Shown: positions 2,085 to 9,167 of the stretch, one piece after another
How the letters are laid out: each line of letters opens with the position of its first letter
Position numbering within the stretch: position 1 is the stretch's first letter
DNA from: Spirosoma sp.
Lineage (GTDB): Bacteria; Bacteroidota; Bacteroidia; Cytophagales; Spirosomataceae
DNA length: 45,624 bases
Direction of reading: 5' to 3'
Assembly (NCBI GenBank): GCA_014377625.1
Contig: JACMPG010000152.1
Location: forward strand, 1-45,624
The notes under the pieces: model-generated
Told to the model about the DNA's origin: nothing
Seen by the model: only the letters and a program-made list of their open reading frames with translations
Databases searched by the model: none
Program-made: the position numbers and the translations under genes

Positions 2085-2118
2085 TTGTTTTAAAGTCAGG
2101 CATTTCCTCATACCTTTG
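2085..2118 (+). promoter_or_regulatory. Bacteroidota-type promoter of the TetR gene
   Basis: TTGTTTT at 2085-2091 and TACCTTTG at 2111-2118 fit the -33 and -7 consensus (TTG and TAnnTTTG), with 23 bp between TTG and the -7 box. Transcription would start near 2125, leaving a leader of about a dozen bases before the ATG at 2137. A TetR-type regulator could act here, but no clear dyad is seen. Confidence 0.6.
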
Positions 2119-2136
2119 TCGTACCAATTCAACGCT

Positions 2137-2748
2137 ATGAACGTGGACGTCAGGGATACCGAAACGAAAATAAAGGAAGCCGCCCGCAAGGTATTTCTGG
2201 CGCAGGGGTATGAGCGGACCAAAATCCGTCAGATTGCCGATGAGGCCGGGGTCAACCTAGCCCTGGTCAATTACTACTTCCGCAGCAAAGAGCAGTTGTT
2301 CAAAAGCATATATGCAGAGACCTTTGCCCAGTTTCTGGGACAGATGGTTTTGCTGCTCAACGAAGAGACTCCGCTGGAAGTGAAAATCTGGCGAATCGTG
2401 GATAGATATACTGATTTTATCGTCGCTAATCCGCTGATTCCCGGCTTCATACTGTCAGAAGCGCAGGCAAACGATGGCGCGTTTTTTAAAGAGATGAACG
2501 CCAGAGGGAAACTGAAAGAGTCTGTGTTTAGACGACAGTTGCTGGAAGAGGCCGAGAAGAAAACGATTCGCCCCGTTGACCCAATGCAGGTTATTGTCAC
2601 CATTATGAGCAACGTTATTTTCCCGGTAATGGCCCGGCCCATTGTTTCGTACATCGGCTCATTCGATGAGACCGGCTTTCGGGCCTTCATGGAATCCCGC
2701 AAGCAGATTGTTCCCGAAATGATTATGGCCTACCTGCGGGCAGGGTAG
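2137..2748 (+). CDS. TetR/AcrR-family regulator of the efflux operon
   Basis: This is a 203-residue protein from the ATG at 2137; an in-frame TTG at 2116 is possible but overlaps the promoter. Residues about 5-50 form the TetR helix-turn-helix, with AARKVFLAQGYERTKIRQIA followed by VNLALVNYYFRSKEQLF. The remaining helical part is the ligand and dimer domain. The gene lies 87 bp upstream of an HlyD-type gene and in line with the ABC genes. It is therefore most likely the local drug-responsive repressor, as CecR is for YbhGFSR in E. coli. The ligand cannot be read from the sequence. Confidence 0.85.
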   Translation: MNVDVRDTETKIKEAARKVFLAQGYERTKIRQIADEAGVNLALVNYYFRSKEQLFKSIYAETFAQFLGQMVLLLNEETPLEVKIWRIVDRYTDFIVANPLIPGFILSEAQANDGAFFKEMNARGKLKESVFRRQLLEEAEKKTIRPVDPMQVIVTIMSNVIFPVMARPIVSYIGSFDETGFRAFMESRKQIVPEMIMAYLRAG

Positions 2749-2835
2749 TCATTTTTTTTGACCTCACATTAAACATCAGTTTAAAACCACTATTCAATAC
2801 TGAATACATCATTGGAAACTGAAACCTCTGTTACT

Positions 2836-3774
2836 ATGAAACGCACCTATTTTCTGCTCGCTTGCAGTCTGTTACTCGTTCAGGTTGGCTGCACTACCTC
2901 CGACGATACCGCTGATGCCTACGGTAATTTCGAAGCCATTGAAACCACAGTTTCTGCCCAGGCTACGGGTGTACTTCAACAATTCACCGTTGACGAAGGT
3001 CAGCTTCTGAAAGCGGGGCAGGCCGTTGGTCAGATTGATACGAAGCAATTACGACTCCGTCGGGCGCAGCTATTGGCCAGCAAACAGGCGGTGCAAAATC
3101 GAACGCCGAACGTATCGGCCCAGTTGTCGGCCTTTGCCCAGCAAGTTTCCGTGCAGCAGCAGCAGTTGAAAAATCTCCGGCGCGAGCAGGAACGCAGCCA
3201 GAATTTAGTCAATGCCGGAGCCGCCCCCAACAGACAACTTGATGACGTGAACGCCCAGATTGCCGTTGTGGAGCGGCAAATCGCGCTCAGTCGCCAGCAG
3301 CGGGCGGCCCAGGCATCGGCCCTCAACACGCAGCGGAGCGGTACGGCTGCCGAAGCCGCCCCCCTGGCCGAGCAGGTAAAACAACTTGACGACCAGATTG
3401 CCAGGGCCAGCGTCGTAAACCCCATTGGCGGCACCGTAACGGTCAAATACGCCGAACCCGACGAGGTGGTCAGCTACGGCAAACCGCTTTATAAAATTGC
3501 AACGCTGGACGTCATTACCCTCCGGGCTTACGTAGCGGGCGACCAACTGACACGCGTTAAGCCGGGGCAGACCGTGCGGGTTTTTATCGACGCACCCAAC
3601 AACCAGCTCAAACCGTATACGGGTACCGTAACCTGGATTTCGAGTAAAGCCGAGTTCACGCCCAAGATTATTCAAACCAAAGACGAGCGGGTCAATCTGG
3701 TATATGCCCTGAAAATAAAGGTCAAAAATGATGGCGGTCTGAAAATCGGCATGCCCGGCGAAGTCAGGTTTTAG
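2836..3774 (+). CDS. HlyD/YbhG-type membrane-fusion lipoprotein
   Basis: The 312-residue protein starts at the ATG 2836; a TTG at 2812 would only add residues before the signal. It has a lipoprotein signal with lipobox LVQVGC, so it should be anchored by the cysteine at about residue 20. It then has a biotinyl-lipoyl half (ATGVLQQFTVDEGQLLKAGQ), a Gln-rich coiled-coil hairpin (about 75-190), the second lipoyl half (GGTVTVKYAEPDEVVSYGKP) and a beta-barrel ending KIGMPGEVRF. It is the periplasmic adaptor that would link the ABC permeases to an outer-membrane channel. It is the first structural gene of the efflux operon and is now separated from the ATPase genes by the MITE/IS110 insertion. Confidence 0.88.
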   Translation: MKRTYFLLACSLLLVQVGCTTSDDTADAYGNFEAIETTVSAQATGVLQQFTVDEGQLLKAGQAVGQIDTKQLRLRRAQLLASKQAVQNRTPNVSAQLSAFAQQVSVQQQQLKNLRREQERSQNLVNAGAAPNRQLDDVNAQIAVVERQIALSRQQRAAQASALNTQRSGTAAEAAPLAEQVKQLDDQIARASVVNPIGGTVTVKYAEPDEVVSYGKPLYKIATLDVITLRAYVAGDQLTRVKPGQTVRVFIDAPNNQLKPYTGTVTWISSKAEFTPKIIQTKDERVNLVYALKIKVKNDGGLKIGMPGEVRF

Positions 3775-3894
3775 AAGCTGTTTGAGTTAGCGATTTGAGA
3801 CGAAAAGCAAAGGATTTTGGTCTTAGACAAGGCACTTTCGCAGGCCGTAGCCGTAGCTACGGGCTAAGAAAGTAACCGCACCGATTTCTATGGG

Positions 3895-4902
3895 TTACGC
3901 AAGGGCTGGCGTATAATTTTTGTCATATTTTTTGCCTCGACGGACAACCGCGCAAACCCGGTGGATCAGCTTGTTGCGAACGGCATTTAACACCAGCATA
4001 GTATGCTTGCCCTCACCAAGTTTGCGGACGTAATAGTCCTGAAGATCGCCCTTCACCTGGATGGCCGACATGGTCCCCATGTGGATCAAGGACTTTAGCC
4101 GCTTTCGCGCCTGATGGCTCACTTTGGTCTTACCCCTGATGCTCGTGCCGGAACGGTACTCAAAGGGGGCAACCCCAGCGTGACAGGCCAGCTTTTTAGG
4201 ATCGTTGATGGTCTGCATCTCGTTGGTAGTAATCAGTAACTCGGTCGCAATCACAGGGCCAATGCCCGGTACAGACACCATCAAGTCGAACAATTCTTTT
4301 AGTCGAGCGTCGGCTTCAATAAGTTCTTTAATGGCTTTTTCGACCGCTTTTTGTTCTTCTTTCAGAGCTGCTAAAGATTTGGCAACATTGCCTTTGAGGG
4401 CCTTTTGAAGCGATTTACTGATGAATGTTTCCTGCTCGGCCACTGGAACAGCCAACAGGTTATAAGCCTGATTGAGCCTTTGGCGGGTCGCGCTCAGAAA
4501 GGCCAGTTTCTGGACAACCTCGCGTGGTGGCTCCCACAGGCGCATTTGGTCCTGGAAGCGATAGGCATATTGAGCAATGCGCTGGGCATCGACTTTGTCG
4601 GTTTTACCCCGCTGCATCCCACCTGCCTGTTTGATCTGCAAGGAAGACTCCAGCCAGATCGACAGGGTTTGCTGGTGAAGCAGTTCTAACAAATGGGCAT
4701 TATAAATGCCGGTATGCTCCATACAGAAAACTGCCTGTTTGGGACTCCAGCCGGACAGAGCCTTAAACTCAGTTAAAGCCGCCTTGATACCCGCCGGCGA
4801 GTTAGGCGTGTGTGTGCTGAGTTGCAGACCCTGTTGAGTATAGACGGCCCAATCAAGGGTATCTTTGGCGATGTCGATTCCGATGAAGTAGCAAAAGTCC
4901 AT
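3895..4902 (-). CDS. IS110-family transposase (DEDD recombinase)
   Basis: This 335-residue protein has the two IS110 domains. The N-terminal RuvC-like DEDD part has IGIDIAKDTLDW (first Asp), MEHTGIY (Glu) and GKTDKVDAQRIAQYAYRF (the last two Asp). The C-terminal Transposase_20 part has VPGIGPVIATELL and PFEYRSGTSIRGKTKVS, which contains the conserved serine thought to attack DNA. The region between is helical. The gene is full length and intact, so the element may still be active. By analogy with IS621 the protein would use a bridge RNA from the left end to pair target and donor DNA. Confidence 0.93.
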   Translation of the reverse strand: MDFCYFIGIDIAKDTLDWAVYTQQGLQLSTHTPNSPAGIKAALTEFKALSGWSPKQAVFCMEHTGIYNAHLLELLHQQTLSIWLESSLQIKQAGGMQRGKTDKVDAQRIAQYAYRFQDQMRLWEPPREVVQKLAFLSATRQRLNQAYNLLAVPVAEQETFISKSLQKALKGNVAKSLAALKEEQKAVEKAIKELIEADARLKELFDLMVSVPGIGPVIATELLITTNEMQTINDPKKLACHAGVAPFEYRSGTSIRGKTKVSHQARKRLKSLIHMGTMSAIQVKGDLQDYYVRKLGEGKHTMLVLNAVRNKLIHRVCAVVRRGKKYDKNYTPALA

Positions 4903-4908
4903 GTGGCT

Positions 4909-5129
4909 GTTTAGTTTTGGTGAGTGGTCAACAATTTGCTTTTACTCGAACCCTTTCATGGGCCACGAACCCGCCTTTCTATCCGAGTCTGGGCAAACTA
5001 AACAGAGTGGGGACTGAATCGGTGCTTAGGTCTAACTCCTCGGCGGCCCGTTAGCGTACCCCACTCTGGTTGACTACTGGCAAGCTACCGAATCCCGGAA
5101 TATTACCAGCCCTCAAACCTAAAGGGCGG
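4909..5129 (-). ncRNA. Candidate IS110 bridge RNA
   Basis: Upstream of the transposase, on the same strand, lie two large hairpins. The first has a perfect 10-bp stem (CAGAGTGGGG 5003-5012 with CCCCACTCTG 5059-5068) around a 46-nt loop. The second has a 9-bp stem (GTTTAGTTT 4909-4917 with AAACTAAAC 4995-5003). The first loop, read in RNA sense, has CTAACGG (5054-5048), which matches the left target CTACCGG in 6 of 7, and then GCACCG (5025-5020), complementary to the right target. The second loop has ATAGAAA (4982-4976), identical to the IS right end (3891-3885). Order and polarity match the IS621 bridge RNA: target loop first, donor loop second. The outer boundaries are estimates. Confidence 0.65.
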
Positions 5130-5196
5130 ACCGGTAGGATAAGAGCAAAAGACGAGTTTTGCGGCCAAAGCGATTAACTCAAACAACTTCTTAACC

Positions 5197-6099
5197 ATGA
5201 TACACATCCAGAACATAGCCAAAGCGTTCGGCGAAATACATGCCGTGCAGGACGTATCGTTCGACGTGGCGCGGGGCGAGTTGTTTGGGCTGATCGGGCC
5301 GGATGGGGCGGGTAAAACCACCCTGTTCAAAATCCTGGTGACCCTCCTCCTACCCGATTCGGGCAGCGCAACGGTGGCCGGGCGCGACGTGGTGCAGGAT
5401 TTCAGAGCCTTGCGGCAGATGGTGGGCTACATGCCGGGGCGGTTCTCCCTCTATCCTGATTTGAGCGTGGAGGAGAATCTGGCGTTTTTCGCCACCGTTT
5501 TCGGTACCACCATTCAGGAAAATTACGAGCTGATTCGGGATATATACGTTCAGTTGGAACCGTTCAAAAATCGGCGGGCGGGGGCGTTGTCGGGTGGCAT
5601 GAAGCAGAAACTCGCGCTCTGCTGCGCCCTGATCCATAAGCCCGACGTCCTGTTTCTGGACGAACCCACAACCGGGGTCGATGCGGTGTCGCGGAAGGAA
5701 TTCTGGGAGATGCTGCAAAGCCTGAAAAAACACGGCCTGACCATACTCGTTTCTACGCCCTACATGGATGAAGCGGGGCAGTGCGACCGTATCGCACTGA
5801 TGCAGAACGGACAGATTCTGGCCATCGACACCCCGACGGGCGTAGAAAACCGCTTTGCTAAACCGCTCTTTGCCGTGCGGGCCACCAATATCTACCGGCT
5901 TATTCAGGACCTGCGGCAGGCTCCGTTTACCATCACCTGCTACGCCTTCGGCGAATTTCTGCACCTCACCACGCAGGACGGCGTTTCGACCGGCACTATT
6001 GACACCTATCTGACCGAACGACACCACAAACAACTCGAAATCAAGCCCATCCGGGCGGGTATCGAAGACAGCTTCATGGACCTCATGCAACATGCGTAA
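5197..6099 (+). CDS. ABC transporter ATPase 1 (YbhF N-half-like)
   Basis: The 300-residue protein has Walker A GPDGAGKT (about 33-40), the intact signature LSGGMKQK and Walker B VLFLDEPTTG. The usual switch histidine is replaced: the text reads STPYMDEA where THYMDEA is normal. It would energise export by the two ABC-2 permeases downstream. It overlaps the next ATPase gene by 8 bp, indicating translational coupling, and corresponds to the N-half of E. coli YbhF, which is one fused protein there. The start is seven bases after the MITE, so its native leader has been replaced. Confidence 0.9.
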   Translation: MIHIQNIAKAFGEIHAVQDVSFDVARGELFGLIGPDGAGKTTLFKILVTLLLPDSGSATVAGRDVVQDFRALRQMVGYMPGRFSLYPDLSVEENLAFFATVFGTTIQENYELIRDIYVQLEPFKNRRAGALSGGMKQKLALCCALIHKPDVLFLDEPTTGVDAVSRKEFWEMLQSLKKHGLTILVSTPYMDEAGQCDRIALMQNGQILAIDTPTGVENRFAKPLFAVRATNIYRLIQDLRQAPFTITCYAFGEFLHLTTQDGVSTGTIDTYLTERHHKQLEIKPIRAGIEDSFMDLMQHA

Positions 6100-6826
6100 C
6101 GCCGTAACGACCAACAAACTGACCAAACGATTTGGCGATTTCGTGGCCACCGATGCCATTACGTTTACCGTAGCGCCGGGCGAGATTTTCGGGTTTCTGG
6201 GGGCCAACGGGGCGGGTAAGACCACCGCTATGCGGATGCTCTGCGGGCTGCTCAAACCCACCTCAGGCACCGCCACGGTGGCCGGGTTCGATGTATATAC
6301 CCAATCGGAGCAGATTAAGCAGGTTATTGGCTACATGAGTCAGCGGTTTTCGCTGTACGATGACCTGACGCCCCGCGAAAATATCCGCTTTTACGGGGGC
6401 ATCTACGGCCTGAAACGTGCCGACCTGAAAGCCAAAGCAAACGCTATTATTGAGGAACTGGAACTGGGCAGCGTAGCCGATAAACTGACCGGGTCGCTGC
6501 CGCTTGGCTGGAAACAGCGGCTGGCCTTCTCGGTAGCCCTGATTCATGAACCCAAAGTGGTCTTTCTGGACGAGCCAACCGGCGGAGTTGACCCCATTAC
6601 CCGACGGCATTTCTGGGATATGATTTACGCAGCAGCCCACCGTGGAACCACTATTTTCGTAACGACGCATTATATGGACGAAGCCGAATACTGCGACCGC
6701 GTATCCATTATGGTCGATGGCCAGATTAAAGCACTCGATACCCCCGGTGCGCTGAAAAAACAGTTTGGTGTCGACTCAATGGACGGCGTATTCCAGATTT
6801 TAGCGCGGGGCACATCGACAAAATGA
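6092..6826 (+). CDS. ABC transporter ATPase 2 (YbhF C-half-like)
   Basis: This 244-residue protein has Walker A GANGAGKT, Walker B VVFLDEPTGG with its catalytic Glu, and a normal switch His (TTHYMDEAEYCDR). Its signature is degenerate (SLPLGWKQR instead of LSGGQ), as in the second half of YbhF-type proteins. Together with ATPase 1 it should form a heterodimer with one good ATP site (its own Walker and His with the partner's LSGG) and one weak site. The start overlaps the end of ATPase 1. Confidence 0.9.
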   Translation: MRNAVTTNKLTKRFGDFVATDAITFTVAPGEIFGFLGANGAGKTTAMRMLCGLLKPTSGTATVAGFDVYTQSEQIKQVIGYMSQRFSLYDDLTPRENIRFYGGIYGLKRADLKAKANAIIEELELGSVADKLTGSLPLGWKQRLAFSVALIHEPKVVFLDEPTGGVDPITRRHFWDMIYAAAHRGTTIFVTTHYMDEAEYCDRVSIMVDGQIKALDTPGALKKQFGVDSMDGVFQILARGTSTK

Positions 6827-6835
6827 TGAGAGCTA

Positions 6836-6863
6836 TTACGCAGAGCTGCGCAGCTCTGCGTAA
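6836..6863. repeat. 28-bp perfect palindrome inside the efflux operon
   Basis: TTACGCAGAGCTGC is followed directly by its exact reverse complement. The palindrome lies in the 61-bp gap between ATPase 2 and the first permease. As RNA it would be a very stable hairpin. There is no T-run, so it is more likely an mRNA-processing or attenuating stem or a repeat-element core than a classical terminator. Confidence 0.85.
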
Positions 6864-6887
6864 CAACCCTTTAGAGACCTCAGGACT

Positions 6888-8012
6888 ATGAAACGCTTTT
6901 TCGCATTTGTCATGAAAGAATTTTACCACATCCTACGAGACCGGCGGACGCTGCTTATTCTGTTTGGGATGCCGCTGGCTATGGTGCTGCTGTTTGGCTT
7001 TGCCCTGACCAACGAAATCAAGAACGCCCGCATCGCCGTCCTCGACCTGGACCACGGGCAGCACAGCCGCCAGATTACCGACCGCCTATTGTCGTCGGGC
7101 TATTTTCAGCTAACCAAAACCCTGACCGCCTACCGCGACGTAGAAGCCACGTTTCGGCAGGGCAACGTGAAGCTGGTGGTTGTATTTCCGCCCAACTTCA
7201 CCCGCAACTACGCCCACGACGGCACAGCGCAGGTGCAGTTACTGGCCGATGCCTCCGAACAGAACACGGCCATCAGCCTGACCAACTACGCCACGAACAT
7301 CATTCAAACGTATCGCACCGGCGCACCGGCCACTGAGCAGAGTCCACCCGGCGCGCAGCCGCCAATGCAAATTACGGTGCAGCCACGCATGGTGTTCAAC
7401 CCCGAACTGGCGGGAGCCTTCGTGTTTGTGCCGGGTGTGATGGCCATGGTGCTGCTGCTGGTTTCCGCCCTGATGACGTCCGTAACGATTGCCCGCGAAA
7501 AAGAAACCGGCACCATGGAAGTCCTGATGGTATCGCCCCTGAGTCAGATTCAGATTTTATTCGGCAAGATGCTGCCCTACCTGCTCCTCTCGTTCCTGAA
7601 CGGCGTCATGATCATCACGCTGGGCGTGTTTCTGCTCAACATTCCGCTCAATGGCAGTTTGGGGCTGCTCCTGTCCGAAACCCTACTGTTTATTTTTGTC
7701 GCCCTCGCGATTGGTCTGCTTATTTCTGCCATTGCCGACACGCAACTGGTAGCCATGTTCACATCCATGCTGGCTATGTTGCTGCCAACTATTTTTCTGT
7801 CAGGCTTCTTGTTCCCCATCGAAAGTATGCCGCGTGTATTGCAGGTCATTTCTAATATAATCCCGGCCAAGCATTTCATCATCATCGTAAAAGGTATTAT
7901 GATTAAAGGCACGGGTCTGAATCTGCTCTGGAAACCCACGCTGATTCTGTTCGCCATGGCCACCGTACTAACCATCGTGAGCTTACGGAAGCTAAAACCG
8001 AGACTGGGCTAA
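6888..8012 (+). CDS. ABC-2 type permease 1 (YbhS-like)
   Basis: The 374-residue membrane protein has the ABC-2 fold. There is one N-terminal helix (LLILFGMPLAMVLLFGFAL), a large periplasmic domain (about 45-180) and five or so helices in the C-half. The conserved cytoplasmic coupling stretch is TIAREKETGTMEVLMVSPL. Length and layout match YbhS/YhhJ-type half-transporters. It forms the export channel with permease 2. Confidence 0.88.
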   Translation: MKRFFAFVMKEFYHILRDRRTLLILFGMPLAMVLLFGFALTNEIKNARIAVLDLDHGQHSRQITDRLLSSGYFQLTKTLTAYRDVEATFRQGNVKLVVVFPPNFTRNYAHDGTAQVQLLADASEQNTAISLTNYATNIIQTYRTGAPATEQSPPGAQPPMQITVQPRMVFNPELAGAFVFVPGVMAMVLLLVSALMTSVTIAREKETGTMEVLMVSPLSQIQILFGKMLPYLLLSFLNGVMIITLGVFLLNIPLNGSLGLLLSETLLFIFVALAIGLLISAIADTQLVAMFTSMLAMLLPTIFLSGFLFPIESMPRVLQVISNIIPAKHFIIIVKGIMIKGTGLNLLWKPTLILFAMATVLTIVSLRKLKPRLG

Positions 8013-8036
8013 TTTTGAATGATAAATTGAGAAACC

Positions 8037-9167
8037 ATGAACCGCATCGGCTTTATGATCGAAAAGGAGTTTAAGCAGCTATTCCGCAACAAGGTGTTGT
8101 GGCGGATGATGCTGGCGGCTCCGGTATTACAACTGATTCTGCTGGCCAACGCGGCTAATTTCGAGGTCAAAAACATCAATATCGTCGTGGTTGACCAGGA
8201 CCACACGACCTACGCCCAGCGGCTAACGGGCAAGTTTCGCTATATCGACAACTTCAATTTTCGGGGGTATCGGCCCGCTACCAAACTGGCTTACCAGGAA
8301 CTTCTGGCCGGAACCGCCGATGTAATCCTGGTCATTCCTCCCCACTTTGAGCGCAATCTGACTACGGAGAATCGGGCCGATGTACAGCTATTAGTCAGTG
8401 CTATTGACGGTACCAAGGCGGGTATTGCCTCCGTATATGCGCAGACGATTATCCGCAGCTTCAACGCCGACATCCGCACCGAAACCATTGGTACTACCCC
8501 GGACGGGGTAGCACCGGAGCGTATGGCCGGACTGGACGTTGAAAATCAGTACTGGTACAACCCCCGGCTGGAGTACAAAACGTTTATGGTGCCCGGTATT
8601 CTCTTCGAGCTGCTCCTGCTCATCGGCAGTATGATTGCGGCCCTCAATATTGTGCGCGAGAAAGAAATTGGCACGCAGGAACAGCTCAACGTAACGCCCA
8701 TCAGGAAGCATGAATTCATCATCGGCAAACTTACGCCCTTTGTGCTGATCGGGTTAATTCAGTTTACCCTGGGGCTACTGGTGGGCCGGTTCGTTTTCAG
8801 GATACCAATAGAAGGCAGTCTGCTGCTGCTCTACGGGTTTGCGTTCCTGTTTTTGCTGCTCTGCGTGGGGCTGGGATTACTGATTTCGGCGGTGTCCAAT
8901 ACGCAGCAACAGGCCATGTTTGTGGTATTTTTCTGTCTGGTACTGTTCATTCTGCTCAGCGGACTGTTTTCCTCTACCGATGACATGCCGCAGTGGGCGC
9001 AAATCATTAATACACTGAATCCACTCAAATACATCATTGAAGTTGGCCGTAATGTGTTGCTCAAAGGCAGTACCCTGCGCGACATGCAAACGCAGTTTTT
9101 CACCCTGCTGGCCATGACGATTACCCTGATCGGGCTGGCCTCCTGGCGGTACAAAAAGGTAGGGTAG
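8037..9167 (+). CDS. ABC-2 type permease 2 (YbhR-like)
   Basis: The 376-residue protein is a paralogue of its upstream neighbour. It has an N-terminal amphipathic start (MIEKEFKQLFRNKVLWRMM), one helix, a periplasmic domain and then C-terminal helices with the coupling sequence LNIVREKEIGTQEQLNVTPI. It starts 24 bp after permease 1 ends and closes the operon. No terminator hairpin is obvious after it. Confidence 0.88.
   Translation: MNRIGFMIEKEFKQLFRNKVLWRMMLAAPVLQLILLANAANFEVKNINIVVVDQDHTTYAQRLTGKFRYIDNFNFRGYRPATKLAYQELLAGTADVILVIPPHFERNLTTENRADVQLLVSAIDGTKAGIASVYAQTIIRSFNADIRTETIGTTPDGVAPERMAGLDVENQYWYNPRLEYKTFMVPGILFELLLLIGSMIAALNIVREKEIGTQEQLNVTPIRKHEFIIGKLTPFVLIGLIQFTLGLLVGRFVFRIPIEGSLLLLYGFAFLFLLLCVGLGLLISAVSNTQQQAMFVVFFCLVLFILLSGLFSSTDDMPQWAQIINTLNPLKYIIEVGRNVLLKGSTLRDMQTQFFTLLAMTITLIGLASWRYKKVG

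Follow-up and report, generated by a model that had tools for sequence, protein, structure and literature searches.

An IS110-group element in a contig of Spirosoma sp. very probably recognizes a dispersed 17-nt repeat by means of its recombinase and a bridge RNA from its left end, pairing this repeat with the ends of its own circle. The exact target repeat, the element boundaries, the two-loop RNA structure, the covariation of three guides with the flanks and the catalytic residues are all read from sequence; transcription, circle formation, cut position and recombination are inferred from IS621. The element is an RNA-guided mobile element of a known kind with an unusually readable set of natural targets, and its mode of action appears to be that of IS621 and ISPpu10, whose insertion sites are REP repeats. 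Bridge RNAs of IS110 elements are covered in PMC11208160, PMC11208158 and PMC11187229.

The element and its recombinase

The element lies in what is here called the window, the whole stretch of DNA that was analysed (45,624 nucleotides, contig JACMPG010000152.1 of assembly GCA_014377625.1), and has the following parts.

3883..5124, minus strand: IS110 element proper, 1242 bp, CTTTAGG...AAATC; bounds from the exact 17-nt repeat obtained on joining the flanks
3895..4902, minus strand: IS110-family DEDD recombinase, 335 aa (Pfam DEDD_Tnp_IS110, 3e-19; Transposase_20, 4e-19)
4903..5124, minus strand: left-end non-coding region with the predicted bridge RNA; structure kept across an alignment of 27 left ends (26 distinct, the window's included)

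The extent is counted from just past the shared core base on the left. The initial annotation had misplaced this left boundary, as the element starts at 5124, 5–7 nt further in. The recombinase has the catalytic residues typical of the IS110 group: D10, E62, D102 and D105 of the RuvC-like DEDD domain and the Tnp-domain serine S251 align with D11, E60, D102, D105 and S241 of IS621, the five residues given in PMC11208158. The closest sequence in the PDB is that of ISCro4 (9t56, E 8e-25), which is nevertheless distant and is likened to the window element by recombinase sequence alone; IS621 follows at E 3e-23. The layout is also that of the IS110 group, with 222 non-coding nt at the left end against 12 nt at the right end and the RNA structure in the left end. 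Assignment to the IS1111 group, where the RNA is in the right end, is ruled out by the mere 12 nt from the stop codon to the right junction. The element also falls outside the CT-core subgroup around IS621, the shared junction base being C, with CC at the left junction and TC at the right. A scan for a sigma-70-like promoter, ill-suited to Bacteroidota, returned none at 4900–5200.

Relatives of the recombinase at E up to 1e-60 occur in 41 of 150 family genomes, its own genome counted in. A reading of the IS as a dead relic, with loops that simply record former guides, draws on this being the only copy found in its own draft genome (378 contigs, 85% complete) and on one mismatch between the left target guide and the present target. 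It is unlikely, as the open reading frame and the catalytic residues are intact, the junction is precise and relatives 83–89% identical over the best segment are found at other sites. Two copies 84–89% identical (best segment) to the window recombinase, L052 and L054, come from a record titled Flavobacterium sp. SUN052, reflecting either a recent transfer or a misnamed genome. The IS110 locus L055/L023 has ~55-base inverted flanks and ends that seemingly come from two different IS subgroups, making it a hybrid element.

The target repeat

The two flanks of the element are the halves of one repeat, referred to as M.

5125..5134, minus strand: CCGGTCCGCC, the left half of M, the 17-nt repeat that serves as target, from flank joining
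3876..3882, minus strand: right half of M, GGTGCGG, from flank joining

When joined at the shared C, the window flanks give exactly CCGGTCCGCCGGTGCGG (17 nt). The same 17 nt are found unoccupied in 12 exact copies in the element's own genome, with 20 more at one mismatch, and the reversed control has none. Form B (CCGGKCCGCCGGTGCGG), searched with up to 3 extra middle bases allowed (none among the matches listed), is present in all 36 genus genomes with 397 matches, and its sister form A (CGGGGCCGCCCGTGCGG) in 31 of the 36 with 219 matches; the reversed controls have 0 in every genome against the 616 copies of the two forms together. Across the family, the combined pattern CSGGKCCGCCSGTGCGG matches in 76 of 150 genomes (control, 2 matches in 2 genomes). 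In a draw at the level of the order, M matches occurred in 9 of the 11 genomes from the family and in 4 of the 137 from outside it, with 3 control matches in 2 genomes; three of those four others have a single match, no better than the control, and the fourth (G183) has 9.

Other copies of the IS, with one exception, do not sit in unrelated targets. Among 39 two-ended elements, joined flanks are exactly form A, form B or a reverse complement in 17 and within 4 mismatches in 38, compared with 0 of 20,000 random 17-mers, a weak control for GC-rich sequence because its base composition was uniform. The exception, L090, has joined flanks 11 mismatches from any M form. The initial annotation had missed that the target is a dispersed repeat. 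In L090 (genome G152, left end at locus base 1503), the element lies outside M and its left flank ends in CATAGAATACC; as this resembles the IS right end, L090 may adjoin a donor-like site. Three M-like matches in the window with 2 mismatches each (at 3563, 19343 and 30158) were put down to chance similarity within coding sequence; two appear by eye to fall in a helicase motif.

The GC-rich halves might instead be the IS's own ends, carried along with it, with the match between loop and flank due to common descent. A GC-rich half is indeed present in 51 of 52 left ends (it is absent in L090), and the identical copies L098–L100 of one genome have the same halves within AT-rich surroundings. However, this explanation is very improbable in view of how common solitary 17-nt repeats without an IS are (219 of form A and 397 of form B in the 36 genomes) and of 7 guide strings for which the same left guide accompanies more than one left half, hybrid or mutated copies accounting for some of these. 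Closely similar surroundings also exist with M alone (L135, genome G160) and with M plus the IS (L100, G149), although L101 shares part of these surroundings, so that a recurring context and not one locus may be involved.

Structure of the predicted bridge RNA

The target-loop stem has two arms.

5059..5068, minus strand: 5' arm, pairing with 5003–5012; helix 2, with 96.2% of cells paired and both-side changes in 5 of 9 pairs
5003..5012, minus strand: 3' arm, pairing with 5059–5068

Two perfect stems, of 10 and 9 bp, had been proposed from the window alone. The first is indeed a perfect 10-bp stem, CAGAGTGGGG/CCCCACTCTG (5068–5059/5012–5003), while the second hairpin folds not as a contiguous stem but as two helices, 7 and 8 pairs long and both containing G-U pairs, on either side of an internal loop. 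The two-loop fold is kept in homologues. The structure alignment comprises 27 left ends (26 distinct) picked by hand from 52 distinct ones; RNAs that had inserted units were passed over, a choice that favours a clean fold. RNAalifold gives a target-loop stem of 9 pairs (5 with both-side changes), a donor-loop stem of 6 (3 such) and an outer helix. Over the 30 consensus pairs, 94.5% of cells are paired compared with 88.1% in shuffled alignments, and both-side changes number 50 cells against 11.9, neither value being reached in 500 shuffles; when the partner is shifted by one column, pairing falls to 47–48%. The outer helix has an alternative because in the single-sequence fold of the window the 3' GCAAATT pairs with an AGTTTGC between the hairpins rather than with the outer strand, its partner in the alignment fold. 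The folding energy of the single sequence is not relied on because its z is only −1.92 (9 of 200 shuffles as good; RNA strand alone), and the opposite strand has z −2.52 (1 of 200); the comparisons among homologues, by contrast, lie far outside their controls. Rfam has no match at the gathering threshold across the window and none at E up to 1 over 3700–5300.

GC-rich units resembling M but of other flavours sit inside the bridge-RNA loops of L029, L115, L054, L061, L058 and L124. L029 and L115, which belong to different subgroups, have an identical unit at the same point, directly 3' of the right target guide.

Guides and their covariation with the flanks

Four guides can be assigned within the two loops.

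5042..5050, minus strand: left target guide CGGGCCGCC; 8/9 against the left target CGGTCCGCC; covariation over 47 distinct guide/flank pairs
5020..5025, minus strand: right target guide GCACCG; complementary at 6/6 positions to CGGTGC, made up of core C and right target; covariation over 32 distinct pairs
4976..4982, minus strand: left donor guide ATAGAAA; identical to the right end, with an A/G change matched in 35 of 35 elements
4951..4956, minus strand: AAAGGG, probable right donor guide; complement of CCCTTT (5126–5121) in the left end

A total of 52 distinct left ends was collected, and right ends were sought in 51, L202, a left end without a target loop, being set aside. A first pattern found 35 right ends and a looser one 4 more (L024, L025, L028 and L090); the remaining 12 have none, in some cases for a contig end or a following insert. 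The four form-A copies L102–L105 of genome G131 all break off after ~290 bases at a CTAGCTAGCTAG linker, leaving no right ends obtainable. G131 is a single 8.8-Mb contig with such linkers and was probably stitched together from contigs.

In most elements, loop 1 shares sequence with the left flank on its 5' side and is complementary to the right flank on its 3' side. The mean longest match between left target guide and left target is 6.96 for the 47 real pairs and 5.15 for permuted ones (permuted maximum 6.06, 0 of 5000 as high). For the right target guide, where only the first 35 right ends were taken (32 distinct pairs), the values are 6.88 and 4.41 (permuted maximum 5.50, 0 of 5000). These permutations ignore relatedness, and part of the covariation is common to clade. 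Individual right target guides follow their right flanks: GCAGCGAT/ATCGCTGT in L051, GCACAGAT/ATCTGTGC in L088, GGTCCGAT/ATCGGACC in L026 and GCACGGAT/ATCCGTGC in L057. Where form-A elements have GCGCGGAT, the flank read is ATCCGTGC, with a single wobble-type G-T mismatch that leaves 5 unbroken nt.

A recombinase protein that alone picks the site, with an RNA that is structural or regulatory and has no guide function, would be compatible with the conservation of the fold by itself. The loop sequences, however, change along with both flanks while the stems stay, and there are paired changes such as that of L088, where an A in the left and right target guides accompanies A2/T11 in the target; we consider a protein-only choice of site exceedingly improbable. 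Fold conservation and guide covariation instead support what the initial annotation had suggested, namely that this is a bispecific bridge-type RNA with readable guides, the target loop preceding the donor loop.

In the window element itself, the left target guide departs from its target at a single internal place, repeat position 5 (G against T), which leaves 5 nt as the longest unbroken match. A match of CTAACGG to CTACCGG had been read here. Its register is right but its extent is not: pairing runs from CGGGCCGCC to CGGTCCGCC at 8/9, and the CTA preceding the guide agrees with the window's left flank by coincidence, since it is invariant in 27 of 27 aligned RNAs whatever the target and its C and T are paired in a helix. 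The right target guide GCACCG (5025–5020), 6/6 complementary to CGGTGC at the right junction, and the identity of ATAGAAA (4982–4976) to the IS right end are borne out, as is the order known from IS621, left then right target guide followed by left then right donor guide. Loop 2 reads ATAGAAA or ATGGAAA, and its third base equals that of the right end in 35 of 35 elements (23 A, 12 G) and in 4 further elements found with the looser right-end pattern. GACC, previously proposed as the right donor guide, is unsupported; that guide is probably AAAGGG (4956–4951), given its complementarity to CCCTTT. AAGG is found in 51 of 52 left ends and CC before TTTA in 52 of 52; this guide is nearly invariant.

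Some relatives appear to read the opposite strand of M. The joined flanks of L026, L110, L112 and L113 equal form B in reverse complement. Their right guides fit over 8 nt and their left guides over just 4–6 unbroken nt, which makes the opposite-strand reading clear on the right side only. Poor guide fits occur in L061 (2 nt, an insert interrupting the loop), L023 (5 nt, ends of two different elements) and L034 (4 nt), and the right guide of L090 has no fit to speak of with its right flank. The guide reading is thus limited by L090, which lies outside M, by the interrupted or hybrid ends of L061 and L023, which misfit, by the 4 nt of L034 and by L202 with its missing target loop.

M as an inserted unit

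The M core of 15–16 bp is, judging from the sequence comparisons below, itself inserted, and the window holds a nest in which the IS110 lies in M and M in a MITE-like element.

5135..5191, minus strand: left part of a ~150-bp inverted-repeat (MITE-like) element holding M; six other copies; outer end by eye
3773..3875, minus strand: right part of the MITE-like element; outer end by eye

Six other MITE copies in the same genome span the site (L004, L005, L006, L007, L010 and L012), and all six are without M and IS, reading CTGCG[TC]TA. With 15 bp of M set aside, the outer flanks in the window, CTTATCCTAC^GTTACTTTC, differ from CTTATCCTGCGTTACTTTT of L006 by two substitutions and no gap (by eye). 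M also breaks transposase genes at exact points, with 15 or 16 bp and without duplication (by eye). The nest lies between an HlyD-type gene (2812–3774) and an ABC ATPase gene (5197–6099). It splits a plus-strand cluster at 2116–9167 of the window that encodes TetR, HlyD, two ABC ATPases and two ABC-2 permeases.

Form B can fold as a CCGG-NNNN-CCGG hairpin with a TGCGG tail. The 20 one-mismatch copies of the own genome vary in the 4-base loop in 13 cases and in the stem in 4 (counted by eye), a loop excess with binomial p 9e-5 when copies are treated as independent, and the target of L088 differs from form A by the paired change A2/T11. Some copies form opposite-facing pairs ~40–110 bases apart around unrelated hairpins (L154, L114, L105 and others among the matches listed). 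In these respects M resembles the REP elements, being a short hairpin with an unpaired tail that partly occurs in opposite-facing pairs. It differs from them in being shorter (15–16 bp inserted) and in lacking, beside its hairpin, the GTAG or CGTC tag by which the REP superfamilies are defined in PMC3733652.

Y1 transposase genes, considered as possible movers of M in the manner of the RAYTs that mobilise REP elements, are found in 29 of the 36 genus genomes. Among 30 Y1 loci, which are part of the listed matches, forms A and B occur only in L196, both on one side, and there is no flanking pair; against such a role, genome G143 has no Y1 match yet 55 copies of the two forms. In its favour, in the own genome another GC-rich unit, CGGTCCGCCGTCGCGG, lies ~40 bases from the Y1 match of L181, and GC-rich units are also present in L186 and L202. 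M and IS110 carriage co-occur in the family (33 of 41 against 43 of 109, p 7e-6) and outside the genus (19 of 27 against 39 of 105, p 0.002), both values being uncorrected for phylogeny or completeness. Solitary M as a scar of IS excision was set aside because excision of the IS621 type restores the LT-core-RT site (the IS621 cycle as set out in PMC11208158) and cannot create it. The genus genome G004, with 11 form B copies and no listed match to the window transposase at E 1e-60, also argues against a scar.

Taken jointly, these observations allow a tentative reading, which we put forward as possible though rather less than probable: M would be a mobile unit among the shortest, moved by neither a known RAYT nor the window IS110, the IS110 clade would have diversified its guides so that M, on either strand, serves it as a landing site that itself moves, and M-like units would insert back into the guide loops.

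Proposed mechanism and comparison with known systems

By analogy with IS621, the bridge RNA would be transcribed from the left end of the IS. Its target-binding loop would present the left guide CGGGCCGCC and the right guide GCACCG, and its donor-binding loop ATAGAAA and probably AAAGGG. The repeat CCGG[T/G]CCGCC^GGTGCGG would be recognized by recombinase and RNA together, its partner being the junction ATAGAAATC^CTTTAGG at which the ends of the excised circle are joined. Top-strand exchange would take place after a core with C as its second base, leaving the IS inserted without target duplication. The junctions read C-C^CTTTAGG on the left, with target core CC, and AAA-T-C^GGTGCGG on the right, with donor core TC; the first core base differs between target and donor, and the second is C in both. 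Placing the cut after this shared C follows from comparison with IS621, whose top strand is cut just after the core according to PMC11208158.

Like IS621 of E. coli, the window element has a DEDD and serine recombinase (E 3e-23), inserts into a dispersed palindromic repeat and has a predicted two-loop RNA from the left end with the guides in the order LTG-RTG, then LDG-RDG. It differs in its shared core base, C here but a nearly invariant T in IS621 and its orthologues; IS621 tolerates changes of the first core base and strongly prefers T at the second, where the window element has C. The right target guide is also longer (~6 nt compared with 4), and in place of the E. coli REP the target is a repeat of 17 nt whose hairpin has a 4-bp stem. 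ISPpu9, ISPpu10 and ISPa11 of the IS110/IS1111 family target REP-like repeats in Pseudomonas, as stated in PMC1525189. The likeness to these is in the type of target; host phylum and repeat family differ. In the literature searched, subscription papers and preprints excepted, there was no earlier description of a Spirosoma IS110, a Bacteroidota IS110 bridge RNA or a Spirosoma palindromic repeat. The thousands of IS110s analysed in PMC11208160 may include relatives of the window element.

Significance

The comparisons made here point to comparatively verified bridge-RNA guides in a Spirosoma-type genus of the Bacteroidota. They provide a natural panel of ~50 guide/target pairs, including matched changes on both sides and the apparent reading of one repeat from its opposite strand, together with a core that has C where IS621 prefers T. 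Such material should help in working out how guides and targets pair and in selecting recombinases that suit other cores. The element also exposes M, a very short dispersed insertion.
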